In this document: positions 14,236 to 54,083 of the stretch, in pieces | How the letters are laid out: each line of letters starts with the position of its first letter | Position numbering within the stretch: the stretch's first letter is position 1 | Source: Thermodesulfobacteriota bacterium | Lineage (GTDB): Bacteria > Desulfobacterota > Desulfobacteria > Desulfobacterales > Desulfosudaceae | NCBI GenBank assembly: GCA_040753795.1 | Contig: JBFMDX010000007.1 | Coordinates: forward strand, 62,001-126,000 | DNA length: 64,000 nucleotides | Direction of reading: 5' to 3' | Program-made: the position numbers and the translations under genes | The notes under the pieces: generated by a model | The model's database searches: none | Seen by the model: only the letters and a program-made list of their open reading frames with translations | Told to the model about the DNA's origin: nothing

Positions 14236-14255
14236 GGGCGACCGGCGGGTCGCCC
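14236..14255. repeat. Hairpin of the GGGCGACC/GGTCGCCC type
   Basis: GGGCGACC and GGTCGCCC flank a four-base loop. A longer hairpin of the same sequence type lies at 42129-42157. These are short REP-like intergenic palindromes and could stop transcription, though there is no U-tract. Confidence 0.5.
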
Positions 14256-14324
14256 CTACAACCTTTCTTCAGGATGACGGGCAGCCATGAAGGCGCCTTG
14301 GGCAGGGGCACGACGCGCCGCTCT

Positions 14325-14342
14325 GGAAGGCTGAAGCCTTCC
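14325..14342. repeat. REP-like 18-bp palindrome GGAAGGCT-GA-AGCCTTCC, copy 1
   Basis: Eight-base arms with a two-base centre, preceded by GGCAGGGGCACGACGCGCCG. Copies 2 and 3 are at 41301-41318 and 43364-43381. It fills part of the 493-bp gap 13935-14427, which has no other gene. Confidence 0.6.
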
Positions 14343-14427
14343 CCGGCAAGAACCCATCATCGGCAGGCCAAAGCAGCCAGACCTCGTCCGGCGGGGCTGA
14401 AGAAAAACCGCTTTAAGGGGAATTGAA

Positions 14428-37777: not shown

Positions 37778-38143
37778 TTACGAATTAGAAATTTTGGACT
37801 TTGTGGTTCGGATTATGGAGCCGGAAAGCCTGAGAAGCTCGTTACACTCTTCGATCACTGAATCAGCGTGTTCGGCACCAATAATGTCTGAATCACGGAG
37901 CGACCGCAGCCAGTAATGCGTTTCGCGGGCTTCCTTGTAGGCAATGCTCATCTTAGAGAGAAAGTCCTTCTTTGACTGACCGCCGATGGCCTCTTCAATA
38001 TTCGCACCAATCGACGTACCGCTGCGCACCATCTGTTTCGAAAGAACAAACTCCCTCTTTTCATCGCATAGATATCGATACAGCTTCACGATCCGCAAAG
38101 CAAACGCGTAAGCTTTTGTCTGTACTGGATTGTCGGTCTTCAT
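37778..38143 (-). CDS. Four-helix bundle protein (23S rRNA intervening sequence family)
   Basis: 121 residues of the TIGR02436 family: TKAYAFALRIVKLYRYL, FVLSKQMVRSGTSIGANIEE, KDFLSKMSIAYKEARETHYW and SVIEECNELLRLSGSIIRT. Members form pentameric four-helix bundles and are often encoded in mobile or intervening sequences; their role is unknown. It is embedded in AT-rich spacer with heptamer repeats, frequent surroundings for this family. The C-terminus SKISNS overlaps such repeat-like sequence. Confidence 0.9.
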   Translation of the reverse strand: MKTDNPVQTKAYAFALRIVKLYRYLCDEKREFVLSKQMVRSGTSIGANIEEAIGGQSKKDFLSKMSIAYKEARETHYWLRSLRDSDIIGAEHADSVIEECNELLRLSGSIIRTTKSKISNS

Positions 38144-38169
38144 CCCTGATCCCTCCTCCCCAAATCTCC

Positions 38170-38223
38170 ATTCCTAATTCCTAATTCCTAATTTTTAATT
38201 CTCCATTCTTAATTCTTAATTCC
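38170..38223. repeat. Tandem AT-rich heptamer repeat (ATTCCTA/ATTCTTA)
   Basis: About seven and a half units of seven bases: ATTCCTA three times, ATTTTTA, ATTCTCC, ATTCTTA twice and a partial. It spans the end of the hipA-type gene, whose last codons read through it. A looser version is at 37774-37795. Confidence 0.8.
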
Positions 38224-39503
38224 CTTTGTATTTTATCCCGCTGCTCCGGAATCACGCGCGACTCTTCCGCATAGTCTTGCCATCGCGCGACGACAGCCCT
38301 CACCTCATTTATGATCGTTTCCGCACGCCCGCGCTTCATTGAAGCGCTCCTGGCACACGCCTTGAAATCCTCCAGCGCAAACTCACTCCGCTTGCCGTTC
38401 ATCGTCATTTGATGGCTCGACGTCCATTTTCCGCTTGGTTGATAGCTGTAGGTCATGTCGAACGCGGGCGAGAGAGACCAGTTTCCCGACCGGTCCATCA
38501 GGAAAGCAATATTTTTTACGTGGTCATCCTGGTTGCGGGCCACGATATTGAATACCATCCGCCGGAACTGCTCCTCGACGGCGGCCATGGGCAGGCCCAG
38601 CCGGCGGATGACCTGCAACGCCTGCTCGTAGCCGTATTCGCCCGCCTGGTTGAAATCATAATGCGCCATACCGCAAAGCGACAGCATGTGCAGCTTGCCG
38701 CCGCCATCCAGCCGGTCGAACCGCCTGGTCATGAAATGACGGCGCCCGTTCTCCTCAAACAGGCGGCACGGACTCATGGTGATTCCCGCGTCTGTCGCCA
38801 TCCGGTAATAAGCATGCTCAATGGCGCCGTATCCCCTGGGGTCCTCCAGCTCCTTGTCCTTGTTGCCGCTGACCCCGTCAAACTTCATCAGCCAGTATTC
38901 AAACCCGCTGCCCGCCTTCACCTGCCCGGAGCGGACTTCGTTCGTTTTCGGATTCCAGGCAATCACCGCCTTGGCCCGCGCTCCGCCCGCGGAAGTGCCG
39001 ACCCGCAGGATGTCCCGCAACGCCGTTTCCTTCCCCTCTTTGTCGAGCCATCCCCGCAGGTTGTTGCGGTGGGTCAACACCTCCGAAGCCAGCTTTACCA
39101 GTTGGTCGACTTCGATACGGAAGGCGCCGGGTCCTCCCAACCGGGTTGCCGGCGCATACTCCAGCGCGCCCATGCCGCGCGTACCCGTATAGCAGAGTCG
39201 CTCCACCGCGTTGAACGATTCCGGCCCGCGCCCGGACCGGGCCAGCCAGGCATCGATCAAGGCATTGCCGAATCGGTCCGGCAGAGAATCCGCCAGAAGT
39301 CCCGGAAGACCGTGGAAGGTTTCCGGTCGCAGCGACGGGAAGGAGTAGAGCCGGCTGGATAGCGGCATCATCAGCGGGGCCACCTCGATACCGCTGCTGA
39401 TAAACGCCGGGTCGTATTCAAACGTCGCGGCCGCGGCGTTGTCTGCCAGCGCCACCGCGCCGATCGTGCGTCCCCACAGGTTGACTTTTGCCGTTGTGCT
39501 CAC
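38181..39503 (-). CDS. hipA: HipA-family Ser/Thr kinase toxin
   Basis: 440 residues. HipA kinase motifs are present: GTSAGGARAKAVIAW (nucleotide loop), YWLMKFDG, FNIVARNQDDHVKNIAFL (catalytic loop with Asp and Asn) and FDMTYSY (metal-binding Asp). HipA in E. coli phosphorylates glutamyl-tRNA synthetase and causes growth arrest; targets of other members differ. It overlaps the HTH antitoxin gene by four bases (39500-39503). The final residues RIKNGELKIRN are encoded by the heptamer repeat, so the native C-terminus has probably been replaced by repeat sequence. The core looks intact. Confidence 0.93.
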   Translation of the reverse strand: MSTTAKVNLWGRTIGAVALADNAAAATFEYDPAFISSGIEVAPLMMPLSSRLYSFPSLRPETFHGLPGLLADSLPDRFGNALIDAWLARSGRGPESFNAVERLCYTGTRGMGALEYAPATRLGGPGAFRIEVDQLVKLASEVLTHRNNLRGWLDKEGKETALRDILRVGTSAGGARAKAVIAWNPKTNEVRSGQVKAGSGFEYWLMKFDGVSGNKDKELEDPRGYGAIEHAYYRMATDAGITMSPCRLFEENGRRHFMTRRFDRLDGGGKLHMLSLCGMAHYDFNQAGEYGYEQALQVIRRLGLPMAAVEEQFRRMVFNIVARNQDDHVKNIAFLMDRSGNWSLSPAFDMTYSYQPSGKWTSSHQMTMNGKRSEFALEDFKACARSASMKRGRAETIINEVRAVVARWQDYAEESRVIPEQRDKIQRELRIKNGELKIRN

Positions 39504-40305: not shown

Positions 40306-41259
40306 ATGAACGAAAACCCGATTGCCCTGGAAAAGGAACACCCGCCTACCGACGACCCTTTCTGGCAGGAGTCCTGGTATTTTAATTTCGCCGACGCCCA
40401 GCGGAACGTGTACGGCCTGACCCGCATCGGCTATCGGCCGTCCCGGAACCGGGCCGACGGCCTGCTGCTGGCTTCAGTCAACGGCAAGCCGGCCCTGCTT
40501 TACCCGGCCCTGGGCAGAAAGCTCTCGTCCCCGGCCGTGGCCATCCGGCCGCCGCACCAGCTCCGCACGGGCGGGCTCTGTTTTGTCTGCCGTTCGCCCA
40601 TGGAGGAGTGGCGGCTGTCGTTGAAAACCCGGCGGGTGGACCTGGACCTGACCTATGCGGCCGAAACGCCGCCCTACTTCTACCCGGAGGTCGCCATGGA
40701 GACGGGACCGTCCGCCGCGGCCAGCCACTATGAACAGGCCGGCCGGATATCCGGCCGGATCCGTTTCGGCCGGACGGACCTGTCTATCAGCGGCCGGGGG
40801 CAGCGGGACCACAGCTGGGGCCCACGGCACTGGGCCGGGGTGGGTTCCTGGACCTGGATCAGCGCCCAGTTCGAATCCGGCTGGGCGTTTAATTACTGGC
40901 GCCTGGGTTCCGGCCCGCCGGCCGCGACCTGCGGGTTTGTGGCCGACGCCGGCAGCACCCGGGACCTGGTCGGCGCAAATATCGAGTGGCAGGGCGATCC
41001 CCTGGGAAGAAAGCCTTCCGGCGCCCGGATGGAAATCGTTCCCGCGGGCGGACCGGCCAGAACGGTGACGCTTACCGCCGCCGCCTGGTGGCCGCTGTAC
41101 AAGGACGGCGCCATGATCACCGAGACCTTCGGCGCCTGTACGTGTGACGGTGAGAAAGGCGTAGGGGTGATAGAACGCCTTTTTATCCCCCGGCTGGGGC
41201 CCCTGGCCCTGATCCCGCATGTGCCGAGAATGGCGGCCATGGCGCTTTACAGCATGTAG
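40306..41259 (+). CDS. CrtC/AttH-like lipocalin-fold protein (DUF7064/7065 type)
   Basis: 317 residues. The diagnostic string is GRGQRDHSWGPRHWAGVGSW, seen in proteins related to hydroxyneurosporene synthase (CrtC) and AttH. The rest is beta-rich (GLTRIGYRPSRNRADGLLLA; WYFNFADAQRNVYG) and matches a double lipocalin-like barrel for a hydrophobic ligand. No signal peptide. Relatives are found near SDR and lipid or steroid catabolism genes; their activity is unknown. No strong ribosome site precedes ATG at 40306. It is followed by a TetR gene. Confidence 0.78.
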   Translation: MNENPIALEKEHPPTDDPFWQESWYFNFADAQRNVYGLTRIGYRPSRNRADGLLLASVNGKPALLYPALGRKLSSPAVAIRPPHQLRTGGLCFVCRSPMEEWRLSLKTRRVDLDLTYAAETPPYFYPEVAMETGPSAAASHYEQAGRISGRIRFGRTDLSISGRGQRDHSWGPRHWAGVGSWTWISAQFESGWAFNYWRLGSGPPAATCGFVADAGSTRDLVGANIEWQGDPLGRKPSGARMEIVPAGGPARTVTLTAAAWWPLYKDGAMITETFGACTCDGEKGVGVIERLFIPRLGPLALIPHVPRMAAMALYSM

Positions 41260-41300
41260 GGGGGTGCCGGCAGGGGCACGGCGCGCCGTGCCGTGCTTCT

Positions 41301-41318
41301 GGAAGGCTAAAGCCTTCC
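41301..41318. repeat. REP-like palindrome, copy 2
   Basis: GGAAGGCTAAAGCCTTCC with the flanking GCAGGGGCACGGCGCGCCG that also precedes copy 1. It lies in the 259-bp gap between the CrtC-like and TetR genes. Confidence 0.6.
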
Positions 41319-41518
41319 CCTACATTGGCCCGGACATTTGCCGCCGGCGGCACCGTGGGGAACGCGCGGAATCGGACGGAGACGGTTGACACGGATCAAG
41401 CCTTTTTGTTATTGCTTCTAAGAGGAATTACCCCTGTTGGTCGCCATGTCATTTCGACCAAAAGGAGAAATCTCTTTTTTCAAGAAATACCCTGCGGATA
41501 ACTTTTGGATATGAATTG

Positions 41519-42127
41519 ATGCCCGGAGAAAAGCTCACTAAACGGAAACTTCAGGGAAGAGAAACCCGCCAGAAACTCTTCGAGACGTCGCTGGCGCTTT
41601 TTAACGAGCGCGGCTATGAAAACGTCACCATCGACGATATCTGCGAGAGAATAGGCGTTTCCAAGGGCGCCTTTTACACCCACTTCAAGTCAAAAGACCA
41701 GGTCATTGTCGAAAATTTCATGTATCTTGACGCCAGTTACGATGAAGTCCTGGCGGATTCTAAAAAGGCCAAAAGCGTTTTCGATAAGATGTATGCCTTT
41801 CAACTGTATGCCATGCGCAAGCTGGAGGAGATCGGGTGGAAGGCGGTTAAGCTGGTGTATCACGTGGAAACCGGCGCGGGTAAAAACAAATCGTTCCTGA
41901 CCTCGAAGAGTTTCAGCCTCTACAAGATCATCCTCTCTTTAGTAAAGGAAGGGCAGAAAAGCGGCGATATCCGCAAAGACCAGAGCGCCGACACCATCAC
42001 GGAAACACTGGTGCAGTTGTACCGGGGCGTTATCTTCGACTGGTGCCTGAACAACGGGGCCTACAGCCTGGTTGAGGCGGCCAACAGCAAGGCGCTGTTT
42101 GTCTTTGAGGGGATACGAACACGATAA
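41519..42127 (+). CDS. TetR-family transcriptional regulator
   Basis: 202 residues. HTH: VTIDDICERIGVSKGAFYTHFKSKDQVI. The ligand domain includes KMYAFQLYAMRKLEEIGWKAVKLVYHVE and ends VFEGIRTR. It is placed between a CrtC-like gene and an oppositely directed hydrolase/SDR pair, which are plausible targets. ATG at 41519 has only a poor ribosome site. An AAAGGAGAAA is 50 bp further upstream. Confidence 0.9.
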   Translation: MPGEKLTKRKLQGRETRQKLFETSLALFNERGYENVTIDDICERIGVSKGAFYTHFKSKDQVIVENFMYLDASYDEVLADSKKAKSVFDKMYAFQLYAMRKLEEIGWKAVKLVYHVETGAGKNKSFLTSKSFSLYKIILSLVKEGQKSGDIRKDQSADTITETLVQLYRGVIFDWCLNNGAYSLVEAANSKALFVFEGIRTR

Positions 42128-42128
42128 C

Positions 42129-42157
42129 CGATGGGGCGACCGCCGGTCGCCCCATCG
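42129..42157. terminator. 13-bp perfect hairpin after the TetR gene
   Basis: CGATGGGGCGACC and GGTCGCCCCATCG with a GCC loop begin two bases after the stop codon. No U-tract. The same GGCGACC core as the hairpin at 14236-14255 shows it is a dispersed repeat that may also end transcription. Confidence 0.5.
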
Positions 42158-42160
42158 TTG

Positions 42161-42255
42161 CACCCATTACACCTTATACCCTGAACCTTACACCCTATAC
42201 CTCACACCTTGTACCCTGCACCTTATACCCTGAACCCTAAACCTTTCACCTTGTT
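42161..42255. repeat. Degenerate minisatellite (ACACCTTATACCCTGAACCT type)
   Basis: Alternating units such as ACCTTATACCCTGA, ACCTTACACCCTAT, ACCTCACACCTTGT and ACCCTGCACCTTAT fill the gap between TetR and the hydrolase gene. The opposite strand has the units seen at 1868-1915. Confidence 0.65.
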
Positions 42256-42258
42256 CCC

Positions 42259-43335
42259 TTACCCCCCGGCTTTTCCATCCAGGAACCCCATGTCCTCGAG
42301 AAACGCATACCAGGCCCGGCCCCGCTCCTGGCGGTTGAAGATGAGCCAGTGCCCGCCGGTGAGAAAATGCCTGTTTTTTACACCCCACTTGTCGCACAGG
42401 GCCTGCACGTATTCAAAGGGACACAACCGGTCGCTGCGGGAGGCCACCACCAGGATTTTTTCAGCCGGAATTTTGGGCATGAAATTCAGGGGCGAGTGCA
42501 GTTCCCAGACGCTTTGAATCTTTTGCCGGAGGCGGTCGTCAACGGCAAAGGCGTGCCGGGCCGTGTCCGGTCCCAGGGGCATGCTGAAATTAACGGCCGG
42601 AACGATCATGGCGCCGAAGGCGGGAACGTCCGTCAGGCTGATGAACAGGGCTGTGTTGTAACCGCCCAGGCTGGCGCCGATCAGGCCGGTTTTCGAGGAG
42701 CCCAGGTCCGACAGGATCCGGAAGGCGCCGTACAGGTCATGCATGTTCTGCCCGACGCACTCGCAGGTCATGACCACGTTGTCCGGCTGCAGGTAAATGC
42801 CCCGCTGCATCAGGGGCCCGGCGCTCCGCTTCCAGTGAAAAGGAGCGATGAAGAGAACCACGTCCAGGCCCGTTGAGAACAGTTGCCGGACCTTGAACAT
42901 TCTTCTCGCCTGCCGGGGCTCTCCGAGCATGTAGCCGTGATGGCACAGGACGGTCTTGCGCCCCCGTTCGCCGTGGGTCCAGCGCACCAGGTACCCTGTC
43001 CGGTTGGCGTCGAAGGCATGATACTTTTCCCGGATCAGGGGGTTTCTGGCCGTGTACCCGCTTTCATACCGGATGAGCTGGCTCTCGCCGTCATAATAGG
43101 GCCGCCGGTCCACAATGGTATAGGCGGGCGTGCCCGCCGGGAAGGTGAAAAAAGTTTCCGGGCGGTCGACGTATCCGCTGGTGATGTAAAAATCCAGTTG
43201 CCGCTCATAGGCCTCGCGGCTGATTCTCCTGCGCGGCCGGAAAGGATTGGCAATTCTCGGCGGAAGCAGGAAAATGTCGTCCACCATGCTACCGGCGGAA
43301 CCCATGAGCCGTTCTTTTAAATGGGTTTTGCTCAT
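42259..43335 (-). CDS. Alpha/beta hydrolase of the ABHD18 (DUF2048) type
   Basis: 358 residues. Nucleophile elbow GASLGG (in TGLIGASLGGYNTALF), oxyanion-side LCHHGYMLGEP, acid region ILVVASRSDRLCP and catalytic His in TGGHWLIFN give a complete Ser-Asp-His triad. The N-terminal RRRISREAYERQLDFYITSG is typical of the ABHD18-like group. Substrate unknown, probably an ester of a lipid or small acid. The gene's start at 43335 is close to the SDR gene's end on the same strand (48 bp), with a REP-like hairpin between. Confidence 0.83.
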   Translation of the reverse strand: MSKTHLKERLMGSAGSMVDDIFLLPPRIANPFRPRRRISREAYERQLDFYITSGYVDRPETFFTFPAGTPAYTIVDRRPYYDGESQLIRYESGYTARNPLIREKYHAFDANRTGYLVRWTHGERGRKTVLCHHGYMLGEPRQARRMFKVRQLFSTGLDVVLFIAPFHWKRSAGPLMQRGIYLQPDNVVMTCECVGQNMHDLYGAFRILSDLGSSKTGLIGASLGGYNTALFISLTDVPAFGAMIVPAVNFSMPLGPDTARHAFAVDDRLRQKIQSVWELHSPLNFMPKIPAEKILVVASRSDRLCPFEYVQALCDKWGVKNRHFLTGGHWLIFNRQERGRAWYAFLEDMGFLDGKAGG

Positions 43336-43363
43336 TTTGTATCGGTCCTTACGATTTTATTCT

Positions 43364-43381
43364 GGAAGGCTGAAGCCTTCC
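43364..43381. repeat. REP-like palindrome, copy 3
   Basis: GGAAGGCTGAAGCCTTCC lies between the SDR stop and the hydrolase start on the minus strand. Confidence 0.6.
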
Positions 43382-43382
43382 G

Positions 43383-44243
43383 CTACTCTCGTATCCTGGC
43401 TTTGGAAAAAAAATGCATCAGCAGATTGTTCATCTGGATCATGGTGATGTGATAGGCGATGAAAAATTTTCTTTTCAGCCAGTAAATCAGTTTGATGTCC
43501 GGGGAGGTAATCACCATGAACCGGTTTTTCCGTATCCCGCTGATGATGTCCCGGGCCACTTTTTCCGGGGTGACAGCGTGTTTTTCAAATCGCCCCACCA
43601 GCTTTTTCACTTCCGGGTGGTTCCGTTCGATGCCGAGGATCTGGACCGTTGCCACCAGGGGCGTTTTCACCGCGCCCGGGCAGACCACGGTGACCCCGAT
43701 CCGGTATCGGCGCAGGTCATAGCGCAGCACCTCGGAAACGCCCCGCAGGCCGAACTTGCTGGCGCTGTAGGCGGCATGCCAGGGCATGGCGATCAGGCCC
43801 GCGGCCGAGGAAACATTGACCAGGTGCCCGCCCTTTTTCGCCGCCACCATGGCCGGCAGCAGGCACTCGATAACGTTTATCGGCCCCATCAGGTTAATGT
43901 CAATCATCTTTTTCCAGTGCTCATGCTTCAAGCTGGAAACCGATCCCCAGGTGGACGTGCCGGCGATATTCATGACAATGTCCATGGGACCGGACTCCTG
44001 CTGGATTTTCTCGGCAAACTGCCGGACCGCGTCATGGTCCGATATGTCGAAAGCGTCCCAGGCGACAACGGTTCCTCCCTTTTCTTTTATCGACGCGACC
44101 ACCGATTCCAGCTGGGCCCGGTTGATGTCGGTCAGAAACAGGCGGGCGCCCAGCCCGGCAAAAACCGTAGCCGTGGCCTTGCCGATGCCGCTGGCCGCGC
44201 CGGTGATGAAACATTTCTTACCCGTAAAATCTTTGATGGTCAT
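43383..44243 (-). CDS. Short-chain dehydrogenase/reductase (classical SDR)
   Basis: 286 residues from ATG at 44243 with AGGGGAGGG upstream; longer frames start in AT-rich DNA. Motifs: CFITGAASGIGKATA (NAD(P) binding), MNIAGTS, and the catalytic Ser and YSASK in VNVSSAAGLIAMPWHAAYSA. The C-terminal 60 residues include a hydrophobic helix region (LIYWLKRKFFIAYHITMIQM), as in membrane-associated steroid or long-chain-alcohol SDRs. The start lies opposite the RPH-like gene at 44433, giving a divergent promoter region. Confidence 0.9.
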   Translation of the reverse strand: MTIKDFTGKKCFITGAASGIGKATATVFAGLGARLFLTDINRAQLESVVASIKEKGGTVVAWDAFDISDHDAVRQFAEKIQQESGPMDIVMNIAGTSTWGSVSSLKHEHWKKMIDINLMGPINVIECLLPAMVAAKKGGHLVNVSSAAGLIAMPWHAAYSASKFGLRGVSEVLRYDLRRYRIGVTVVCPGAVKTPLVATVQILGIERNHPEVKKLVGRFEKHAVTPEKVARDIISGIRKNRFMVITSPDIKLIYWLKRKFFIAYHITMIQMNNLLMHFFSKARIRE

Positions 44244-44432
44244 ATGCCCTCCCCTGATACGAATTATACATACCCAAGTCAGATACTTTAGTATGTGTAT
44301 TTCCTGTCCCCCTGTCAACAAATTTATTCCACCTTCATTTTTTTAAAAAGCCCGTTTTGTTTTTGCGTGGATAATTTGTCCAGAAGGAATATGATAATAC
44401 CATAATTTCCTCTTTACTTTTAACCCGGCGGC

Positions 44433-46916
44433 ATGCCGGCGGACGACACCATGACGGCTGACAAGGAAGGCCCTTTCTGGCTGCCTCTTTCACCGGATAC
44501 GCCTCCGGACATATCCCTGCTGGGCGGCAAGGGCGCCAACCTGGTCCGGCTCATGCGGGCCGGATTCGACGTTCCGGCCGGGGCGGTGCTGCCGACGACC
44601 CTGCTCAATGATCTGGACTGGATCGAGATTCCCGAAGTCAAACGATTCATCGAGCGGGCCATCAAACCCCACGACCGGCCGGACCTGTTGTGGGCGGTGC
44701 GCTCCTCGGCCGCGGATGAAGACGGGGCCGAGGCCTCCTTTGCCGGCCAGCACGACACCTTTCTCAATGTTCCCGCTGCCGGAATTTTCGAGTGCGTGAC
44801 CAAATGCCGGGAATCGGTCTATTCCACCCGGGCCGAGTCCTACCGAGCGGACCTGGGCCGTGACGGCAAACCCTCCCTGGCGGTCATCCTCCAGAAAATG
44901 GTGCCGGCAAGGTGCGCCGGCGTTCTCTTCACGCGGCACCCCGTCCGTCCGGACCAGGACCGCATCGTGGTAGAGGGCGTGCCGGGCTTGGGCGAAGACC
45001 TGGTGGCCGGCCGCCGGGCGCCGGACCGCCTGGAGCTGTCCCGGGGCGGGAAGATCATGTCGGAGCGGACGGCCAACCCGGTCAACTGCCTCAACCAGGT
45101 CGGACAGGAAGCCTTTGCCCGCCTGGCCCGCGAACTGGAACGGTTCTTCGGGTCGCCTCAGGACGCGGAATGGGCCTTTGACGGCGAAACCCTCTGGCTG
45201 CTCCAGACCCGGCCCATTACCACCATCCGCCGGCCGGCCAAAGTCTGGACCCGGGCCTGGGGGGACGAGTTCTGGGCCGAGGCCACCACCGACCTGCAGT
45301 ACACCTTCCTGGGCCGCTGGATCCGGGAAGATTACATGGCCGACCTGGCCCGGATCAACGGCTGGAATTTTCTCCGGGACGTGACGCCCTTTGCCCGGAT
45401 TCACAGTCATGTGTACTTCAATTCCGAATACATGTACCGGCTGCTGACCCTGGTTCCTCCGCCGCTGCGGATCGAAAGAATGCTTGGCTGGATTCCGCCC
45501 TACTGGCGGCCCGAGCTGCCGGATTTGAAGTTCCGCCCCCTGGTCCTGATGGCCAGCGCCGTCCGGTCCCGGCTGGCCGACCGCCACGCTTCCATTCTTT
45601 CCCATTACAAAAAGCTGCCCGGATATACCCGGCGCGTCCGAAAAAAACTGAAGCCGCGGCTTTCCGACGACCTGACCCGTCTGGATGACCGGGCCCTGTG
45701 GAAGCGGCTCAAGGCCGGCGACAGGATGGGCCGCGCGCATTTTCGTTTTATCCGCTGGGGCCTGGCCTCGTACCTGATGGCCACCAAGCTGGCCTGCGCC
45801 TGGATCACGGAAAAGTGGACCTCCTTTGACGCCTTTTCCGACCCGGAAGGCCATTTCCTGGAAATGCTTTTGATCGACCCGGCCGGCAACACCACCCGAC
45901 GGGTAAATGAAGAAATGAAGGCTCTCGGCCGTGAAGCAGCGCAGGTGCCGGCCCTGATGGCCCTGGCCGCCGGCCGCCCGGCCACGCCGACGCTGGATGA
46001 AATCCAGGCCCTGCCCGGGGCCGGAGATTTTGCAGCCCGCCTGGAGAAGTTCATCGCCGAGCACGGCCATCGCGGCAGCTCCCGGGAACTGCATCTGCCC
46101 CGCTGGATGGACGACCCTTCCCTGGTCATCGGGCCGGTTCTGGCCCTGGCCGCCTCCGGCAAAGCCGCGGATGAAAAGCCCCATCACAACGACTTTGAAG
46201 CCCGCTGGCTGGACGAGATCGGTCAGAACCCCGGCGGCTGGTGGAAACGAGCGGCTGCCCGGCGCCTTCTGAAGCTGGCCCGGGCCTATACCCAGTACCG
46301 GGAAAATCAGCGATACGCCCTGGATTACATTTTAACGGACATGCGGCATGTGCTGCTAGAAGTCGCCAACCGGCTGGTCAAAAGAAGCGTCCTGCGGCAG
46401 CCCGACGACATTTTCTTTTTAACTTATGACGAACTGGGGAAAACCTGGACCGGAAAAGCGGCTGCCCCGGACGGACTGGACCGTCGCCGGGCCCGGTTCG
46501 AGGCGGATTCCAAAACCCTGCCGCCGGAATGGATCATGGACGACAAGCCCTGCCCGCCCCCGGAGGAGCCCCTTCATCCCCCGGCCGGCATCCTTTCCGG
46601 AACCGGAGCCTCGCCCGGCCTTGCCCGGGGCCCGGCAAGGATCGTCCGCTCCGTGGATGAACTTCGGACCGTGCGCGCCGGGGATATCCTGGTGGCGCCC
46701 AACACCGATCCGGGCTGGACGCCGGTCTTCGGCCTGATCGCCGGCCTGGTGGTTCAGACCGGCGGCATGCTCTCCCACGCCGCCATCGTGGCCAGGGAGT
46801 ACGGCATCCCGGCCGTCACCGGCGTGGCCAACGCCTGCGCCCTGATGGCGCCTGATGAAATGATCGAAGTCAATGGAGACGCCGGGCGGATACAAAGGCA
46901 ACAGGATTTTAAATAA
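44433..46916 (+). CDS. PEP/pyruvate-binding phosphotransferase, RPH-like architecture
   Basis: 827 residues in three parts. The N-terminal ATP-grasp domain has LGGKGANLVRLMRAGFDVPA, WAVRSSAADEDGAEASFAGQ and ILQKMVPARCAGVLFTRHP. A helical middle spans roughly residues 280-690. The C-terminal swivelling domain has His782 in GGMLSHAAIVAREYGIPAV. The order and length match rifampicin phosphotransferase rather than PEP synthase, which has a TIM barrel after the His domain. The likely reaction is transfer of the ATP beta-phosphate, by way of His782, to a substrate bound by the middle domain. That substrate is unknown. It heads the plus-strand row ending with the geranylgeranyl-reductase gene. Start 44433 or 44451. 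Confidence 0.87.
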   Translation: MPADDTMTADKEGPFWLPLSPDTPPDISLLGGKGANLVRLMRAGFDVPAGAVLPTTLLNDLDWIEIPEVKRFIERAIKPHDRPDLLWAVRSSAADEDGAEASFAGQHDTFLNVPAAGIFECVTKCRESVYSTRAESYRADLGRDGKPSLAVILQKMVPARCAGVLFTRHPVRPDQDRIVVEGVPGLGEDLVAGRRAPDRLELSRGGKIMSERTANPVNCLNQVGQEAFARLARELERFFGSPQDAEWAFDGETLWLLQTRPITTIRRPAKVWTRAWGDEFWAEATTDLQYTFLGRWIREDYMADLARINGWNFLRDVTPFARIHSHVYFNSEYMYRLLTLVPPPLRIERMLGWIPPYWRPELPDLKFRPLVLMASAVRSRLADRHASILSHYKKLPGYTRRVRKKLKPRLSDDLTRLDDRALWKRLKAGDRMGRAHFRFIRWGLASYLMATKLACAWITEKWTSFDAFSDPEGHFLEMLLIDPAGNTTRRVNEEMKALGREAAQVPALMALAAGRPATPTLDEIQALPGAGDFAARLEKFIAEHGHRGSSRELHLPRWMDDPSLVIGPVLALAASGKAADEKPHHNDFEARWLDEIGQNPGGWWKRAAARRLLKLARAYTQYRENQRYALDYILTDMRHVLLEVANRLVKRSVLRQPDDIFFLTYDELGKTWTGKAAAPDGLDRRRARFEADSKTLPPEWIMDDKPCPPPEEPLHPPAGILSGTGASPGLARGPARIVRSVDELRTVRAGDILVAPNTDPGWTPVFGLIAGLVVQTGGMLSHAAIVAREYGIPAVTGVANACALMAPDEMIEVNGDAGRIQRQQDFK

Positions 46917-47030: not shown

Positions 47031-49715
47031 ATGACCACCGTACTGCTCACCAATGCCATCGGCCCCTATGATCTCGGCTGGGGCGAAGACATGACCGATC
47101 TTTTCGGGGCCCGCCTGACCCGGGGCCAGGGGCCTTTTTCTCTGCGGGGCTTCTTTTCCACCTTTGCGTTCTATCTCATCGCCGAAAACATCAAGGTTCC
47201 GGCGGTGATTCTCGAACATCCCGACGAAGCCGTCTTCCGGAAGGAGCTTCAGAAAGGATATGATTATATCGGGCTCCAGGTAGTGACGGTCCATATTCCC
47301 CGGATCGCGAAAATGGTCCGGATCATCAAAGAAATTTCCCCCAAAAGCAAAATCGTGCTGGGCGGATACGGGGTATCCACCCTGTACCATCCCCCGCCCC
47401 ATGATCCGGACAATGACGCGCAATTCATCCTGGACAATGCCGATTATGTCTGCCGGGAGGAAGGGGTCGGTTTTTTCCGGAATATTCTCGGCCAGGACCC
47501 CGGCGAGCCCATCACCCAGCTGCATATGCCGCCGGCCCTGTCGACGGTAAGAGGCATGGAAAATATCGCCGCCATGCCCACCACCTCCACCCTGGTGGCC
47601 CTGGGCTGTCCCAACGCCTGTGAATTCTGCAACACCTCGGCCTTTTTCCGGTTTAAAAAGATATTCGTGTCCACGCCCGAACAAACCGTGGAAACACTCA
47701 AGACCGTCATGAAAAAGTACACCCGGGACCGGTTCGTTTATAACATGCTCTGGAATGAAGACTTTCTGCTCGACCGGCCCTACGTGATGCGTTTCGCCCG
47801 GCTCTTACAGGAAGCAGGCCTCATCGGCAAGGTGAACATTTCCTCCTTTGCCAGTATCCGCTCCGTGTCCCAGTACACCACCGAGGAGCTGATCATGGCC
47901 GGCATCGGCGCCCTGTGGATCGGCGTGGAATCCAAGTTCGACGATGTGGTCACCTCCGTTCACCAGTTTCAGAAACGCGCCGGGAAAGATATCCGTGAAG
48001 TTTTTGAAGACCTGCATCGCTACGGCATCAAGATCATCGCTTCCAGCATTCTGGGGCTGGACTTTCACACTCCGGAGAACATTGAGGAGGACATCGATTA
48101 TTTTGTTTCTTTAAAGCCCGATTTTTACCAGGTCGCCCCCCTGACCCCCTGTCCCGGGACCATGCTGTACGACCGCATGATGGAGGAAAACAGGCTGTAC
48201 GACAACTTCTCCTTTGAGCATGTGCAGATCTGGAGCGACCGGATTTTCAAGCATGCCAACTTCGATGACGGCCGGATCCGGCACTATTTTGATCTGTGCC
48301 ACAAAAAGCTGTACGAAACCAACGGCCCCTCCCTGCTCAACATCAGCGACGTGCTGATGCAGGGATACAAAACCATGGTGCACTCGACCAATCCGTTTCT
48401 CCAGGCCGCGGCCGACCGGTGCTACTTTGAGTCCAAATACATGCAGGGCGATCTCTATTACAGCCTGAAAGAACTGGCGCCCAACGAAACGGTCAGAAAA
48501 CGGGCGGAGGCCGTGGAAAAAGAGTTTTTAAAATATTGCGGCGATTACCGGCCGGTCAACCGGCTGATTCAGAAATTCATCTACCGCCGTCTGCTTCGGG
48601 AATCGACAAACACCGCCCGGGAATCGGATCCGCCCTGGGAGATCATCCGGTTTGCCGGGGACAAGTCCGCCCCCAAAGTGGTGGCGCGGCGCGATCCGGT
48701 AAAAAGTTTTCTGCGACAAAGCGCTCATGGCCTGATCAGGCGGTCACTCCGGATCGGGGTCGAGCCGGACCGCGCCATCCGGCTGGCCGACATCGACGAT
48801 TTTCCCGTAACCTTTCATTATATCGACATCGAAGGCGACCGGATCAATTACGTGGATGAGGGCGCGGGCGAGACGATTCTCATGATCCACGGCAACGCCA
48901 CCTGGTCATATCTCTATCGCCATCTGATCCGTGATTTAAAGAAGAATTTCCGCTGCGTGGCCATCGATCTTCTGGGTTACGGCCTTTCGGACAAGCCGCC
49001 CCGGGCCGACTATTCCATGGAGGCCCACATCCGCCGGCTGGAAATATTCGTGGACCGGCTCGGCCTGAAAGATATCACCCTGGTATGCCAGGACTGGGGC
49101 GGCATCATCGGATTGAGTTACGCCGCGGCCAATAAAGAGAGATTTAAACGACTGATTCCCATGAACACCACCGGCTTTCTGCCGGAAACCCCGGCCGAGG
49201 TGATGCAATGCCTGGGGGCCCATGCCTTTCCCTATCTGTGGTCATACAAAATTCCGGTGCTGGGAAAACGCATGGCCATGGACTGGAATCTTTTTTTAAG
49301 GTCATCCATGCGGCTGGGCATTCACAACAAAAACCGGCTGAACGAAAAAGCCATGGCCGGGTACCTTTATCCCTTCCAGCGGCCCCACGAACGGACCGCC
49401 ATCATGAAATCCGTGCGCCAGATTCCCGTCGGGCCCTTCGGCCCCATTGCCCGTCTGCTGAAACAAACCCGCCGGAACCTGGACGGCTGGGATGTCCGCA
49501 CCCGGGTGATCTGGGGTATGAAAGACCCGGTCTTCGTACCCTGGTTCATCAAAAAATTCGAAGAACTGCTGCCGAATCACGCGCCGTCGGTCAAAATCGC
49601 CACGGCCAGCCATTATCTTCAGGATGATGAACCGGACCGGATTATTGCCGGGATCCGGGAGTTCATGACGGAAGATGCCATGCCAAACGCCATTCCGACA
49701 GCGGCGGCGGGATGA
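47031..49715 (+). CDS. B12-binding radical SAM protein fused to haloalkane-dehalogenase-like hydrolase
   Basis: 894 residues. Residues 1-150 resemble the B12-binding domain of class B radical SAM enzymes (no DXHXXG). The radical SAM barrel follows with Cys193, Cys197 and Cys200 in LGCPNACEFCNTSAFF. From about residue 600 an alpha/beta hydrolase starts: HGNATWSYLYRHL (His620, Asn622), AIDLLGYGLSDKP, nucleophile Asp688 in VCQDWGG, acid Asp in VIWGMKDPVF, and His in ASHYLQDD. HGN and QDWGG are haloalkane dehalogenase signatures, including the halide-binding Asn and Trp. This joins two catalytic modules in one frame without a stop. No leader. It is followed by the chelatase genes with a 23-bp gap. 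Confidence 0.88.
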   Translation: MTTVLLTNAIGPYDLGWGEDMTDLFGARLTRGQGPFSLRGFFSTFAFYLIAENIKVPAVILEHPDEAVFRKELQKGYDYIGLQVVTVHIPRIAKMVRIIKEISPKSKIVLGGYGVSTLYHPPPHDPDNDAQFILDNADYVCREEGVGFFRNILGQDPGEPITQLHMPPALSTVRGMENIAAMPTTSTLVALGCPNACEFCNTSAFFRFKKIFVSTPEQTVETLKTVMKKYTRDRFVYNMLWNEDFLLDRPYVMRFARLLQEAGLIGKVNISSFASIRSVSQYTTEELIMAGIGALWIGVESKFDDVVTSVHQFQKRAGKDIREVFEDLHRYGIKIIASSILGLDFHTPENIEEDIDYFVSLKPDFYQVAPLTPCPGTMLYDRMMEENRLYDNFSFEHVQIWSDRIFKHANFDDGRIRHYFDLCHKKLYETNGPSLLNISDVLMQGYKTMVHSTNPFLQAAADRCYFESKYMQGDLYYSLKELAPNETVRKRAEAVEKEFLKYCGDYRPVNRLIQKFIYRRLLRESTNTARESDPPWEIIRFAGDKSAPKVVARRDPVKSFLRQSAHGLIRRSLRIGVEPDRAIRLADIDDFPVTFHYIDIEGDRINYVDEGAGETILMIHGNATWSYLYRHLIRDLKKNFRCVAIDLLGYGLSDKPPRADYSMEAHIRRLEIFVDRLGLKDITLVCQDWGGIIGLSYAAANKERFKRLIPMNTTGFLPETPAEVMQCLGAHAFPYLWSYKIPVLGKRMAMDWNLFLRSSMRLGIHNKNRLNEKAMAGYLYPFQRPHERTAIMKSVRQIPVGPFGPIARLLKQTRRNLDGWDVRTRVIWGMKDPVFVPWFIKKFEELLPNHAPSVKIATASHYLQDDEPDRIIAGIREFMTEDAMPNAIPTAAAG

Positions 49716-49738: not shown

Positions 49739-50755
49739 ATGCTTCCCACCTTCCCCTTTTCCGCCCTCGTTGGCCAGGACCAGATGAAGCTGGGCCTGAT
49801 CCTTAACGCCGTCAACCCGGCCATCGGCGGCATGCTGATCCGGGGCGAAAAGGGAACGGCCAAGAGCACGGCCGTCCGTGCCCTGGCGGCCCTTCTGCCG
49901 GAAGTGACCGTGGTCAAAGACTGCCCCTTTAACTGCGATCCGGACGACCGGGACCATCTTTGCGCCCAGTGCCTGTCCCGCGGCGGTAATCTACCGCGGA
50001 TGACCCGGCCGGGCCGGGTGGTGGAACTGCCCATCAACGCCACCGAGGACCGGGTGGCCGGCACTCTGGACCTGACCCATGCCCTGCAAACCGGTGAAAA
50101 ACGTTTTGAACCCGGCCTGCTGGCCGAGGCCCACCGCGCCATTCTTTATGTTGACGAGGTCAACCTGCTGGATGACCATATCGTGGATATTTTATTGGAC
50201 AGCGCCGCCATGGGGGTGAACATCGTCGAGCGCGAAGGCGTCAGCGTTTCCCATCCGGCCCGTTTCATCCTGGTGGGCACCATGAACCCGGAGGAAGGCG
50301 ATCTGCGGCCACAGCTCCTGGACCGGTTCGGCCTGTGCGCCGCCATTACCGGCCTGAAGGAAAGATCGGAACGGGTGGAACTGGTCAGGCGCCGCCACGA
50401 CTTTGAGGTCGACCCGGACGCTTTCCTGAAACGGTTCGCGGAAGACGAGCTGCGCCTGAAAACAAAAATCGCGGAAGCAAGGGGCCGCCTTTCCCGGGTA
50501 ACCATTTCCGATCGGATGCTTTCCCGGATTTCCAATATCGCTCTGGAAGTCGGCGTTGACGGCCACCGGGCCGACCTGATCATGATGAAGGCGGCCGTCA
50601 CCCGCGCCGCTCTGGAGGGACGGACCGAAGTGGGCCTGGAAGACGTTTTGAGTACCGCCTCCCTGGCCCTGTATCACCGGGCGCGGCGCCATCCGTTTGA
50701 CGAAACCGGCCTGGACATGGACCGGGTCCGGGCAGCGGCGGAAACGGACTCATGA
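49739..50755 (+). CDS. Magnesium/cobalt chelatase AAA+ subunit I-type
   Basis: 338 residues. Walker A GEKGTAKSTAVRAL, Walker B ILYVDEVNLLDDHIVDILLD, sensor RFILVGTMNPEEGDLRPQLL and arginine-finger DRFGLCA are those of BchI/ChlI. A CX4CX9CX2C-like cysteine cluster (CPFNCDPDDRDHLCAQC) sits after the P-loop, as in several non-phototroph chelatases. BchI with BchD powers metal insertion by a large BchH/CobN catalytic subunit, which is not encoded in this window. The ATGA overlap with the next gene shows translational coupling. The metal is unknown; cobalt is the more likely choice in a corrinoid-using anaerobe. Confidence 0.9.
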   Translation: MLPTFPFSALVGQDQMKLGLILNAVNPAIGGMLIRGEKGTAKSTAVRALAALLPEVTVVKDCPFNCDPDDRDHLCAQCLSRGGNLPRMTRPGRVVELPINATEDRVAGTLDLTHALQTGEKRFEPGLLAEAHRAILYVDEVNLLDDHIVDILLDSAAMGVNIVEREGVSVSHPARFILVGTMNPEEGDLRPQLLDRFGLCAAITGLKERSERVELVRRRHDFEVDPDAFLKRFAEDELRLKTKIAEARGRLSRVTISDRMLSRISNIALEVGVDGHRADLIMMKAAVTRAALEGRTEVGLEDVLSTASLALYHRARRHPFDETGLDMDRVRAAAETDS

Positions 50756-52695
50756 CCCGGGGCCGCGACCATCGTCAAGTATTTCCCTTTACCGCCATCG
50801 TCGGTCAGGACCACCTCAAGCGCGCCTTGATCATCAATGCCATTGTGCCCGGTGGTGTCGGGGTTCTGATCCGGGGAGAGAAGGGCACGGCCAAGAGCAC
50901 CTGCGCCCGGGCCCTGGCCTGTCTGCTGTCGGATATCTCATCCGGCCCGTTTCCGTTCGTCACCCTGCCGGTCAATGCTTCCGAAGACAACCTGGTCGGC
51001 GGGCTGGATTTTGAATACGCCCTGGCCGCGGGCCAAAAGCGATTCAACCCGGGAATCCTGGCCCGGGCCCACGGAGGCATCCTGTACGTGGATGAGGTCA
51101 ACCTTCTGGATGACCACCTGGCGGATCTGATCACCGATACCGTCGCCGCCGGAACCAACCGGGTAGAACGCGAGGGCGTCAGCCTCCTCCACGCCGCGCG
51201 ATTCTCCATGGTGGCCACCATGAATCCGGAAGAGGGGGAGTTGCGGCCACAGCTGCTGGACCGTTTCGGACTGTGCGTGAATGTTGCCGGCATCCGGGAT
51301 CTGTCCCTCAGGGTGGAACTGCTGCGGCGGCGGGAGGCCTTTGACCGCGACCCGGCCGCTTTTGAGGCCGTGTGGGAAGAGGAGCAACGCCGGGAAGCGC
51401 GGCGCCTCGCTGAGGCGATGCGGCTTTACGATTCCGTGACGGTCTCAAATCAACAAATCGATTTTGTTGTTGCCGCCTGTATCCGGGCCGGCGCGGCCGG
51501 GCACCGGGCGGAAATTGTCGCGGTCAAGGCGGCCCGGGCCCTGACCGCCTATGCCGGCCGGCCGGCTGTAACCGACAGGGACATAAAGGCCGCTCTCCTG
51601 ATGGCGCTGGTCCATCGGGCAAGGTCCTCAGACAATGGAACCGATCACCTGGTCACGGAACCGCGTCCGGAAAGTATTGGCCACGCCGATGCGCCGGGAC
51701 ATGCCGCCCGGCCCCGTCACCTGGCACCGGATAAGGGAGCGGACACCTCAGCCTCTCCCTGTCCGGCGGCAACCGGCGGCGAAGGGAGTGCGAAAGAGCA
51801 TTTTCCCCCGCCGGCCTCGAGCGGACAGGGCGTGATGTTCGGCATTGACGAATCCATAACCGTTTCCACCCGGGAGATCAGGCATACGGCGGCCCGGCAA
51901 AGGCAAAAGGCGGGCCGGCGTCACCGGTCCGTGGCGGATGACAAACGGGGCCGATACATCCGCTTTACCTCATGCCGGACCGGCCATGATATCGCCCTGG
52001 ACGCCACCATCCGCGCCGCCGCCGTCCACCAGAAAAACCGGCCGCGGGGACCCCTGGCCGTCACCATCGCTCCGGAGGACATCCGGGAAAAAATCCGGGA
52101 GCACAAAACCCGGACCCTGTTGATCTTCGTGGTGGACGCGTCCGGGTCCATGGGTACGCGCCTGATGAAAGAAACCAAGGGGGCCGTTCTGAGCCTGCTG
52201 CTGGAGGCCTATCAGAAACGGGACCGGGTCGCCATGATCGCTTTCAGGGACCGGAAGGGAGAAATCCTGCTCCCGCCCACGGACAGCGTTGACCTGGCCA
52301 GGAGGAAGCTTCGCGACCTGCCGGCCGGCGGCAAGACCCCCCTGGCGGCCGGGCTGATGCAGGGATACCGGCTGGCCAGGTCCGGAGACCGGCGAAAAGG
52401 CGGAACACTTCCTCTCCTGATCCTGGTCAGTGACGGCCGGGCCAATGTCGGGGCAAACCCGGGCGTTTCCTACTCCATGGAAAGGGCCGGCCGGATATAT
52501 GACGAAATTTTTTCCCTGGCCCGGATCATTAAAAACGACCTCCGCATCAAAACGATGGTCATCAACACCGAACATGAAACCAGGGGCGGATTCGGCATGG
52601 CGGAAAGGATCGCGGAAGAGCTGGGCGGAAGGTATGTTTCCCCCGCCCGGATCCGCGCCGACTCCATCACCCGGGCCGTCCGCGCGTTTATATAA
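50752..52695 (+). CDS. Chelatase subunit D-type: AAA+ domain plus VWA domain
   Basis: 647 residues. The AAA+ part repeats the I-subunit pattern (GEKGTAKSTCARAL; ILYVDEVNLLDDHLADLITD; MVATMNPEEGELRPQLLDRF) with an intact Walker A, whereas many BchD proteins have lost it. A low-complexity Pro/Ala/Gly linker (about 295-350) leads to a VWA domain with MIDAS motif VDASGSMG and later ILVSDGRANVG. The D subunit bridges the I ring and the catalytic subunit. Coupled to the I-type gene by four bases. The intact nucleotide site means it may itself hydrolyse ATP. Confidence 0.9.
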   Translation: MTRGRDHRQVFPFTAIVGQDHLKRALIINAIVPGGVGVLIRGEKGTAKSTCARALACLLSDISSGPFPFVTLPVNASEDNLVGGLDFEYALAAGQKRFNPGILARAHGGILYVDEVNLLDDHLADLITDTVAAGTNRVEREGVSLLHAARFSMVATMNPEEGELRPQLLDRFGLCVNVAGIRDLSLRVELLRRREAFDRDPAAFEAVWEEEQRREARRLAEAMRLYDSVTVSNQQIDFVVAACIRAGAAGHRAEIVAVKAARALTAYAGRPAVTDRDIKAALLMALVHRARSSDNGTDHLVTEPRPESIGHADAPGHAARPRHLAPDKGADTSASPCPAATGGEGSAKEHFPPPASSGQGVMFGIDESITVSTREIRHTAARQRQKAGRRHRSVADDKRGRYIRFTSCRTGHDIALDATIRAAAVHQKNRPRGPLAVTIAPEDIREKIREHKTRTLLIFVVDASGSMGTRLMKETKGAVLSLLLEAYQKRDRVAMIAFRDRKGEILLPPTDSVDLARRKLRDLPAGGKTPLAAGLMQGYRLARSGDRRKGGTLPLLILVSDGRANVGANPGVSYSMERAGRIYDEIFSLARIIKNDLRIKTMVINTEHETRGGFGMAERIAEELGGRYVSPARIRADSITRAVRAFI

Positions 52696-52712: not shown

Positions 52713-54083
52713 ATGCCGAAACGATACGATGTGATTATCGCCGGCGCCGGAAATGCCGGTCTTGCCTGCGCCAGGGCAGCGGCTGCCGGCGGGCTGAACG
52801 TCCTGCTGATCGACAAACGCCGACGCGGGAACCCCGGTCGTGACTGGTGCGATGTGGTGGAAAAAGATGTTTTTCAGCGCCTCGGCCTGGGCCTGCCGCC
52901 GCCGGCGTTATGGCGCCCGGTATCCCTGCCGGTCTTTTTCACGCCGGACATGAAGGATAGGATCGACCCGGGCAATCTCGAAAACCGACCCTGTCCCCAC
53001 CTGTACATTGACCGGAGCCGGATGAGCCAGTGGCTGTTTGATCTTGTCGAGCCGCATCCCCATGTGGAAGTCCGAACTGAAACCACGATCCTGGGGCCGG
53101 AATTGTCTGGAACGCGGGTTACCGGCGTCCGTATCGCCGGCGCCAATAACGGCGCGACGGATGTCATCAAAGGCGATGTCGTCGTCGATGCCAGCGGTCT
53201 GCATTCCGTAATCGATTCACGGGTTCCTTACGACTATCCCTTCCGGGCCGATCCGGTCAATCCCGGTGATGTTTTCATCGGGATAAAAGAGATCATCTCC
53301 GTCAATGATGCGGATACCCTGCGCCGCACCGGCAACCGGATCCTTATGGGATATGGCGGCGGCATGGCCTGGACGATGATTTACCGGGAGAATATGATCG
53401 ATGTAGGCGTTGCCGTTCCGCGGACGCAGAGAGCCGGCGGCATCAAAAAGCTTTTAAGCGGCCTCAAAGACAGGCTGGGGCTATCCTCTTTTGCGCCGGT
53501 TCGCCGTGGTGGCGGGCTGTTGCCCGCCAGGCGCTGCCGGACCCGGCTGGCGGGTGAGGGCTACCTGGTCGCGGGCGACGCGGCCTGTCAGATCAACCCG
53601 GCCAACGGCGGCGGCATTTCACCGGCCCTGCTGGCCGGTCATATGGCCGGAGAGGCTATCGTTCATGCCGGCCGGTCCGGCGGCAATGGTCCCGCCTCTT
53701 TATGGGATTATCCGCGGCGCTATATTACCGGCCAGGGCGCCGCTTTCGCCGGCCTGGATATGATGCGGATCTGCTTTCAGTCGCTCTCGGCCAGTGACAT
53801 CTCCTGGCTGTTCAGAAAAGGGGTTATTCAAATCCATGACCTGGCAGTGCCCTTTATTGCTGGCGAACGACCGCCATTTCAGGTAATCACTGGGCTGCAA
53901 AGTGCCGTCAGAGGCAGGTCCCGTCCCGGCCTGCTGTTAAAACTGGCCCGGGCGCTGCTGGACGCCCGGGCGATCGAAACGGCCTATCGTGACATACCGG
54001 CAACCTATCATCCGGCGACCGTTGCCCGCTGGGAGAATAAAATCAGGGGGATAGCCGAGAGAGCCGGGAGAAAACGGTCGTAG
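52713..54083 (+). CDS. Geranylgeranyl reductase family flavoprotein
   Basis: 456 residues. FAD-binding GAGNAGLACARAAAAGGLNV, NPGRDWCDVVEKDVF with the cysteine typical of the ChlP/BchP and archaeal geranylgeranyl reductases, and EGYLVAGDAACQINPANGGG in the second FAD motif. Members reduce isoprenoid double bonds of chlorophyll side chains, archaeal lipids or quinones. The C-terminal helical part (FAGLDMMRICFQSLSASDIS) is family-like. 17 bp after the chelatase D gene with AGGGGATA as ribosome site, so probably the last gene of the unit beginning at 44433 or 47031. Substrate unknown. Confidence 0.88.
   Translation: MPKRYDVIIAGAGNAGLACARAAAAGGLNVLLIDKRRRGNPGRDWCDVVEKDVFQRLGLGLPPPALWRPVSLPVFFTPDMKDRIDPGNLENRPCPHLYIDRSRMSQWLFDLVEPHPHVEVRTETTILGPELSGTRVTGVRIAGANNGATDVIKGDVVVDASGLHSVIDSRVPYDYPFRADPVNPGDVFIGIKEIISVNDADTLRRTGNRILMGYGGGMAWTMIYRENMIDVGVAVPRTQRAGGIKKLLSGLKDRLGLSSFAPVRRGGGLLPARRCRTRLAGEGYLVAGDAACQINPANGGGISPALLAGHMAGEAIVHAGRSGGNGPASLWDYPRRYITGQGAAFAGLDMMRICFQSLSASDISWLFRKGVIQIHDLAVPFIAGERPPFQVITGLQSAVRGRSRPGLLLKLARALLDARAIETAYRDIPATYHPATVARWENKIRGIAERAGRKRS

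Follow-up and report, generated by a model that had tools for sequence, protein, structure and literature searches.

What might a single protein achieve with a radical S-adenosylmethionine (SAM) enzyme at one end and a haloalkane dehalogenase (HLD)-like hydrolase at the other, and is such a protein real? The question is raised by a gene in a window of 64,000 nucleotides (the whole stretch of DNA analysed here) from a Thermodesulfobacteriota bacterium (assembly GCA_040753795.1, contig JBFMDX010000007.1, positions 62,001 to 126,000). A first-pass annotation, made from the letters alone, had described one uninterrupted frame of 894 codons at 47031–49715 encoding a radical SAM/B12 protein fused to an HLD-like hydrolase; coordinates and length are both right, with an ATG at 47031, a stop codon ending at 49715 and no stop between them. 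The cluster motif and the complete HLD-type catalytic set that it had reported are likewise in place, as C193, C197 and C200 (CX3CX2C) in the radical SAM half (residues 1–560) and as N622, D688, W689, D832 and H861 in the hydrolase half. In Pfam, Radical_SAM matches residues 191–357 (37 bits, cut-off 29.5) and Abhydrolase_1 residues 615–868 (99 bits, cut-off 25.8), and the full-length protein was modelled with a predicted local distance difference test score (pLDDT) of 87.9 and a predicted template modelling score (pTM) of 0.85. The protein is a new, conserved combination of known domains, with an unexpected motor, ChlI/ChlD, encoded next door.

The fusion was sought with the whole protein in 146 genomes of the order (the window's own, G000, included), 389 genomes drawn from the class and 395 from the phylum, counts of neighbouring genes resting on a six-frame search; genomes, contigs and loci are numbered below with the prefixes G, C and L. 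Eight full-length loci in seven genomes encode this domain order in a single frame: G000, with further full-length matches in G069, G140 and G110 from the order and in G146, G241 and G206 (two genes) from the class sample, L031 and G206:C4 being counted as one locus. A ninth locus, in G274, is divided by a contig break between the ends of two contigs; because these share an overlap of 138 bases (99.3% identity), it was counted as one gene. With eight loci beyond that of the window, and nine in eight genomes overall, the check for the same domain order elsewhere was answered positively, and an assembly error joining two genes, a possibility that the first-pass annotation had itself raised, is ruled out by this recurrence: the radical SAM–HLD fusion is real, with next to no room for doubt. 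The phylum sample yielded no new fusion at E 1e-90, only separate radical SAM proteins of 43–46% identity, and the fusion is present in seven of the nine genomes of family f68. G001 and G002, members of the same family as the window's genome, are without it at 1e-90, so that the distribution of the window's copy is patchy and it may have been acquired horizontally. G206 holds two fusion genes (L031 and L059), and a ChlID motor adjoins L059 alone. Identity of the seven other full-length fusions to the window protein is 56–62% over the full length, 56–63% over the radical SAM core (residues 1–470) and 70–73% over the hydrolase half (residues 589–880), falling to 25–39% in the linker (561–588), where at most seven residues align in any of 13 separate radical SAM proteins.

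What, then, does the better-conserved half resemble? Among solved structures its best sequence match is DhmeA (33–35% identity), a stand-alone protein that shares with it both the N-D-W-D-H pentad and the fold. The pentad of DhmeA is N63, D129, W130, D258 and H286 (PMC10503415, in the portion available). In fold, the predicted full-length model matches DhmeA with Z 35.8 (8ckp) and 35.6 (8ooh; root-mean-square deviation (rmsd) 1.8 over 277 residues), and DpcA (35.6), DmrA (35.3) and AncHLD5 (35.0) come within one Z unit; fold therefore leaves the subfamily unsettled, because DhmeA ties with other HLDs. The three NCBIfam haloalkane dehalogenase cut-offs are missed (175, 170 and 151 bits against 241, 265 and 466). 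Judged by its residues, the hydrolase half is HLD subfamily III-like, and alkyl- or acyl-enzyme chemistry at D688 is likely. Dehalogenation proper is one option only, and an unlikely one. An organohalide enzyme, in which the radical SAM half would functionalise a substrate and the HLD half hydrolytically strip its halogen, draws on the full HLD pentad, including N622 and W689, and on the HLD fold; it is distinctly unlikely given that subfamily III enzymes are poor dehalogenases in the account available from PMC10503415, that the hydrolase adjacent to one separate radical SAM relative (L054, below) lacks the N/W pair, and that no halogenase was named among the part of the neighbour proteins run against Pfam.

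The same source, as far as available, names OleB as a putative subfamily III member and a beta-lactone decarboxylase (PMC10503415), and this invites a further explanation: that the C-terminal domain decarboxylates beta-lactones in the manner of OleB, with the fusion engaged in making or tailoring long-chain hydrocarbons. OleB shares the subfamily III pentad, position for position in 31 OleB sequences, and 32–34% identity with the fused hydrolase. An OleB query at 1e-30 finds matches in 114 of the 146 order genomes, fusion genomes included, and reaches G069, G140 and G110 through the fusion only. The window's genome moreover has a complete oleA-oleB-oleC-oleD set on a separate contig, C14 (L032, G000:C14:82000-101000, at 3426–14624), accompanied by three radical SAM genes (8244–9656 on the forward strand, 9688–11217 and 13038–14624 on the reverse), the last of which is related at 30% to the first half of the fusion; this relative lies some 5 kb from oleA with genes between, and was not counted as linked. 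An OleA-like gene (38–40%) is found in six of the seven f68 fusion genomes (not in G206), and within a few kb of it lie a 29% OleC-like ligase in G274 and a 26% OleD-like protein in G110, the other four having neither; these OleA-like thiolase genes of f68 (L173–L178) have no adjoining oleB match. The OleC-like ligase of G274 is not telling, because f68 OleC scores equal those of ordinary ligases in most genomes searched, and none of the f68 fusion genomes has an OleC orthologue (their best E values are 1e-22 to 1e-25, against 1e-293 in G002).

Phylogeny argues in the same direction. The hydrolase tree comprised 57 rows, among them 31 OleB rows labelled by an adjacent oleA or oleC; further qualifying OleB rows were left out (L070, L071, L078, L079, L082, L083, L086, L110), L096 is the same gene as L092, no row came from L072, L105, L113, L115 or L119, and L185 and L188 were fetched and gave none. 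The fused hydrolases form one clade (support 100/100) and the 31 OleB rows, with one unlabelled row, a separate one (98/95), while the fork joining fusion, OleB and DhmeA against the DhaA231 side has a support of only 40/10. The fused domain thus lies outside the OleB clade. Nor do fusions keep ole company: no oleA, oleC or oleD occurs among the annotated neighbours in the window, and none was matched (1e-6, six frames) in the stretches around the eight other fusion loci. An OleB-type role is accordingly very improbable. As a drop-in replacement for OleB the fusion is weakened by the separate clades and the want of an OleC orthologue, and it is best regarded as no such replacement, a related lactone reaction being possible.

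The N-terminal half belongs to the radical SAM superfamily by its Pfam match over cut-off, its invariant cysteines and its fold. A model of residues 1–563 (21 sequences; pLDDT 90.1, pTM 0.90) has its closest structural matches in AprD4 (6fd2; Z 22.8, rmsd 2.9 over 381 residues), TsrM (6wte; 18.2), OxsB (5ul4; 17.7) and MgmA (17.4). AprD4, TsrM and OxsB share the Rossmann domain and radical SAM barrel with the fusion, but are only 12–15% identical to it and lack a hydrolase domain. AprD4 has a cobalamin-type domain and yet is not known to use cobalamin. A sequence search against solved structures gave one marginal match, to MgmA (9ccb, E 0.0035), and a second at E 0.78 taken as chance; the highest-scoring named NCBIfam models, HpnJ (63 bits, cut-off 577.6) and BchE TIGR02026 (42.2 bits, cut-off 481.35), stay far under their cut-offs. 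Class 1 cobalamin-dependent radical SAM enzymes (OxsB, TsrM, TokK) are described in the available part of PMC13331322, which makes no mention of AprD4, as having a five-strand N-terminal Rossmann domain, a barrel and a helical C-terminus, and the element order in the model is the same. Strands are predicted in the Rossmann region at 4–7, 38–41, 58–62, 79–83, 107–111 and 169–173; where class 1 has a hairpin after strand 5 there is the single strand 169–173, and 182–188, which precedes the CX3CX2C motif, is probably the first barrel strand. Of the first-pass label, therefore, radical SAM and HLD-like stand firm; B12 is carried by the fold rather than by a profile, because the Pfam B12-binding match (residues 64–119) stays below its cut-off (27.4 against 32.1 bits). 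The N-terminal half possibly binds cobalamin, as predicted from that fold.

The first-pass annotation had missed the downstream neighbours. At eight of the nine fusion loci, and beside at least one fusion in all eight genomes, the gene is followed by a ChlI/ChlD motor, whose Walker and metal-ion-dependent adhesion site (MIDAS) motifs are those of Mg/Co chelatase motor subunits. In the window the chlI-like protein has Walker A and B and a CX3C...CX2C motif (TIGR02442 493 bits, cut-off 779; BchI-ChlI 433, cut-off 467), and the chlD-like protein has its MIDAS, DASGS, at residue 462 (TIGR02442 662 bits and BchD-ChlD 437, both under cut-off). At L036, L037, L038, L060 and L061 a single gene of 668–674 codons, next after the fusion, covers ChlI and ChlD together. 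In all seven single-gene motors (these five with L059 and L190) codons 346–348 are nine consecutive A; the flanking residues differ among the seven, and both other frames stop within one to nine codons. The first five loci together span 87 kb and contain eight runs of nine A, five of them being these sites. Such runs are not special to fusions, because stretches of eight to 13 A occur in other ChlD genes (L180, L181, L134, L142, L152). The run is probably a programmed frameshift site like that reported for fs-chlD in the available text of PMC9227772, and a predicted frameshift product of roughly 350 residues fits a ChlI-sized protein where the window has a separate chlI.

A 37-row tree built by a quick method places the ChlI-type rows beside radical SAM genes, that of L039 (a locus with a separate radical SAM gene) included, in one group of nine (Shimodaira–Hasegawa-like approximate likelihood ratio test (SH-aLRT) 98); elsewhere in the tree, on long branches, the ChlD domain of the window pairs with that of L039 (support 97). 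In an earlier tree of 35 rows, before L059 and L190 were added, the ChlI-type group had a support of 91 and the nine labelled rows taken together one of 5. As regards the chelatase that such a motor would ordinarily serve, no match to PF02514 (ChlH/CobN) was found in G000, G110, G146, G241, G106 and G458, nor in G206 and G274, whose genomes are incomplete (86 and 83%), so that six of the eight fusion genomes are without one. Across the order, 25 genomes have a ChlI match at 1e-60 and 17 of these have PF02514; among the eight that do not, the motor stands beside a radical SAM gene in G000, G106 and G110. That chelatase motors are always radical SAM partners was ruled out: besides those 17, ChlI/ChlD lies near a CobN at L179, L180 and L181, and a match to the radical SAM half was found at only five of the 34 ChlI loci read (L123, L124, L126, L127 and L130, those of G000, G106, G140, G069 and G110).

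The following explanation can be put forward, tentatively and as a whole somewhat short of even confidence: a bifunctional radical SAM/hydrolase enzyme with stepwise chemistry and a ChlI/ChlD helper. The N-terminal half would cleave SAM at its [4Fe-4S] cluster to give a 5'-deoxyadenosyl radical, with cobalamin possibly involved, and the radical would alter an unactivated carbon in a small molecule, probably of acyl or lipid type. In the C-terminal half, D688 would then attack a C-X bond or the C-O bond of a lactone, epoxide or ester to form a covalent alkyl- or acyl-enzyme, which D832 and H861 would resolve through hydrolysis or decarboxylation. ChlI/ChlD would use ATP to activate the radical SAM half or to load its cofactor, a role proposed because of the gene order and because related AAA+/VWA pairs act as activases or loaders for other metalloenzymes. 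Of the parts of this explanation, it is fairly probable that both halves serve one pathway, and the balance is even on whether the motor acts on the fusion. That the motor, borrowed from tetrapyrrole chelation, loads a cofactor into the fusion or remodels it is conceivable, though the odds lean the other way.

Were it so, the fusion would be the first client for an orphan ChlI/ChlD; to our knowledge no other radical SAM enzyme has a dedicated AAA+ activase, and the fusion would also be the first of these. In the text available from PMC9227772, the function of ChlI/ChlD without the large subunit is termed unexplored, and the gene order described here offers such pairs a concrete client. The orphan pairs treated there, fs-chlD among them, resemble the present motor in being AAA+ and AAA+/VWA pairs, encoded at seven of our loci by a single gene with a slip site, and differ from it in that the motor here is tied to a radical SAM/hydrolase gene (PMC9227772, available portion). 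One gene, moreover, links two families whose natural roles are obscure, the HLD-like hydrolases of subfamily III and a radical SAM family still uncharacterised, and the product of one half can therefore point to the substrate of the other. No description of the fusion or of its pairing with the motor was found in the titles and abstract beginnings of the open-licence literature searched, which is not proof of absence.

Several observations weigh against the bifunctional enzyme and its helper, the first of them from relatives of the radical SAM half that are not fused. Thirty-six such relatives were examined by six-frame search, 13 with wider neighbourhoods (L032–L035, L039–L041, L048 and L054–L058, the contigs of L048 and L040 being short) and the other 23 (L007, L008, L010–L030) with no more than 1.5 kb on either side. 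An HLD-type hydrolase lies nearby in only two (L054 and L039) and not in the other 34, and ChlI/ChlD stands beside one, L039. At L054 (G458, 559–3179) a hydrolase of 296 residues overlaps by four bases the start of a radical SAM gene 45% identical to that of the window; its nucleophile is kept, the positions of N622 and W689 are occupied by I and V, and it forms a long branch that is no close kin of the fused hydrolase. Secondly, the motor is not always adjacent: at L059 and L190 (G274) the single gene, of 675 and 677 codons respectively, lies about 1 kb downstream, and at L031 there is no ChlI/ChlD within the 6.4 kb to the contig end. Thirdly, PF02514 is matched in G069 (two, full-length) and in G140 (partial), where the motor could serve a chelatase, and at the CobN-less ChlI loci of G014, G025, G027, G056 and G061 neither fusion half was matched in the short flanks, some of them cut by contig ends.

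The two linked relatives nonetheless exclude, if narrowly, the possibility raised at first pass that relatives always have two separate proteins with unrelated neighbours. L054 was considered as an orthologous split pair or ancestor of the fusion, and ruled out: it encodes a different alpha/beta hydrolase beside the same kind of enzyme, as judged from the I and V at the halide-binding pair and the long branch, and its pairing is apparently independent of the fusion. Neighbours of L054–L058 are mixed, with no common pathway theme (penicillin amidase, amidohydrolase, CoA transferase, kinases and an ABC transporter among them), and G000 has four further unfused paralogues of the radical SAM half, of 31–33% identity, at C5 176092, C14 94974, C20 32316 and C3 62438.

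L039 (G106) has TetR, radical SAM (31%), ChlI (66%), ChlD (46%) and hydrolase (26%) in that order, the last four as separate genes and the hydrolase two genes away from the radical SAM gene. Its run of ChlI, ChlD and hydrolase resembles the known gene order bchI-bchD-bchO, which, together with the motor adjoining the fusion and a weak likeness in hidden Markov model scores, at 42 bits for BchE and 39.5 bits for BchO, would suit a tetrapyrrole module like that of bacteriochlorophyll synthesis: a BchE-like radical SAM enzyme, ChlI/ChlD, a hydrolase in the role of BchO and a BchP-like reductase. Such a module is improbable, however, when G000 has no BchH/CobN match, the BchE and BchO cut-offs (481 and 172.6) are far off, the hydrolase is HLD-like at 175 bits, and the geranylgeranyl (GG)-reductase of the window is unmatched beside other fusions. 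The adjacency of hydrolase and ChlD in L039, the presence of the motor at all but one fusion locus and the better conservation of the hydrolase half could also be accounted for by a hydrolase half that is not catalytic and serves the ChlI/ChlD motor as a docking or structural part, the fusion merely fixing stoichiometry. This is hardly probable, since all five catalytic positions are kept in nine of nine fusions, including that of motor-less L031, with the qualifier that the genome of L031, G206, does have a motor beside its other fusion, L059. The features of the fusion gene and its neighbours are listed below.

Features of the fusion gene and its neighbours in the window
Feature	Position	Strand	Evidence
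Fusion gene, 894 residues, radical SAM half and HLD-III-type hydrolase half	47031..49715	+	Single open frame; 8 further loci
Residues 1-175, predicted cobalamin-type Rossmann domain	47031..47555	+	Pfam B12-binding (below cut-off), predicted strands, TsrM/OxsB fold matches
C193-C197-C200, CX3CX2C [4Fe-4S] cluster motif, GCPNACEFC	47607..47630	+	Invariant in 21/21 aligned sequences
Residues 415-526, C-terminal helices of radical SAM half	48273..48608	+	Predicted structure
Residues 561-588, fusion-only linker	48711..48794	+	Alignment with fusions and separate radical SAM proteins
Residues 589-880, HLD-III-type alpha/beta hydrolase	48795..49670	+	Pfam, structure matches
N622 (HGN), first halide-binding position	48894..48896	+	N in 9/9 fusions, 31/31 OleB rows
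D688 putative nucleophile and W689 (QDWGG)	49092..49097	+	D, W in 9/9 fusions, 31/31 OleB rows
D832 putative catalytic acid (WGMKDP), subfamily III position	49524..49526	+	D in 9/9 fusions, 31/31 OleB rows
H861 putative catalytic base (SHYLQ)	49611..49613	+	H in 9/9 fusions, 31/31 OleB rows
chlI-like AAA+ ATPase, 338 residues, 23 bases after fusion	49739..50755	+	Profile matches, Walker A/B and CX3C...CX2C motifs
chlD-like AAA+/VWA, 647 residues, 4-base overlap with chlI	50752..52695	+	Profile matches, MIDAS
Geranylgeranyl-reductase-like flavin adenine dinucleotide (FAD) enzyme, 17 bases after chlD	52713..54083	+	NCBIfam
Phosphoenolpyruvate (PEP)-synthase/RedH-like dikinase-type enzyme, 114 bases upstream of fusion	44433..46916	+	PPDK_N, PEP-utilizers

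The GG-reductase-like enzyme scores 193 bits with DGGGPL_reductase (cut-off 580) and 116 with GG-red-SF (cut-off 159). In the stretches around the other fusions nothing matches either it or the PEP-synthase-like gene at 1e-6, and the two are not claimed as core partners. Acyl-CoA dehydrogenase-like genes follow the motor at several loci, two each in L037, L038 and L061, one in L060 and one, cut by a contig end, in L190; there is none in L036, L059 ends too soon, and one is also found near the radical SAM gene of L057. These neighbours are a hint of an acyl substrate for the fusion. Further upstream in the window, 40306–44321 holds an Rv3169-family-like gene (DUF7064/7065), a TetR gene, an ABHD18-like hydrolase gene and a short-chain dehydrogenase/reductase gene over its NCBIfam cut-off (PRK07832), a group that is possibly lipid-related. 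At 37778–39503 the translation, judged by eye, suggests a small four-helix protein resembling S23, next to a gene for a HipA-like kinase.

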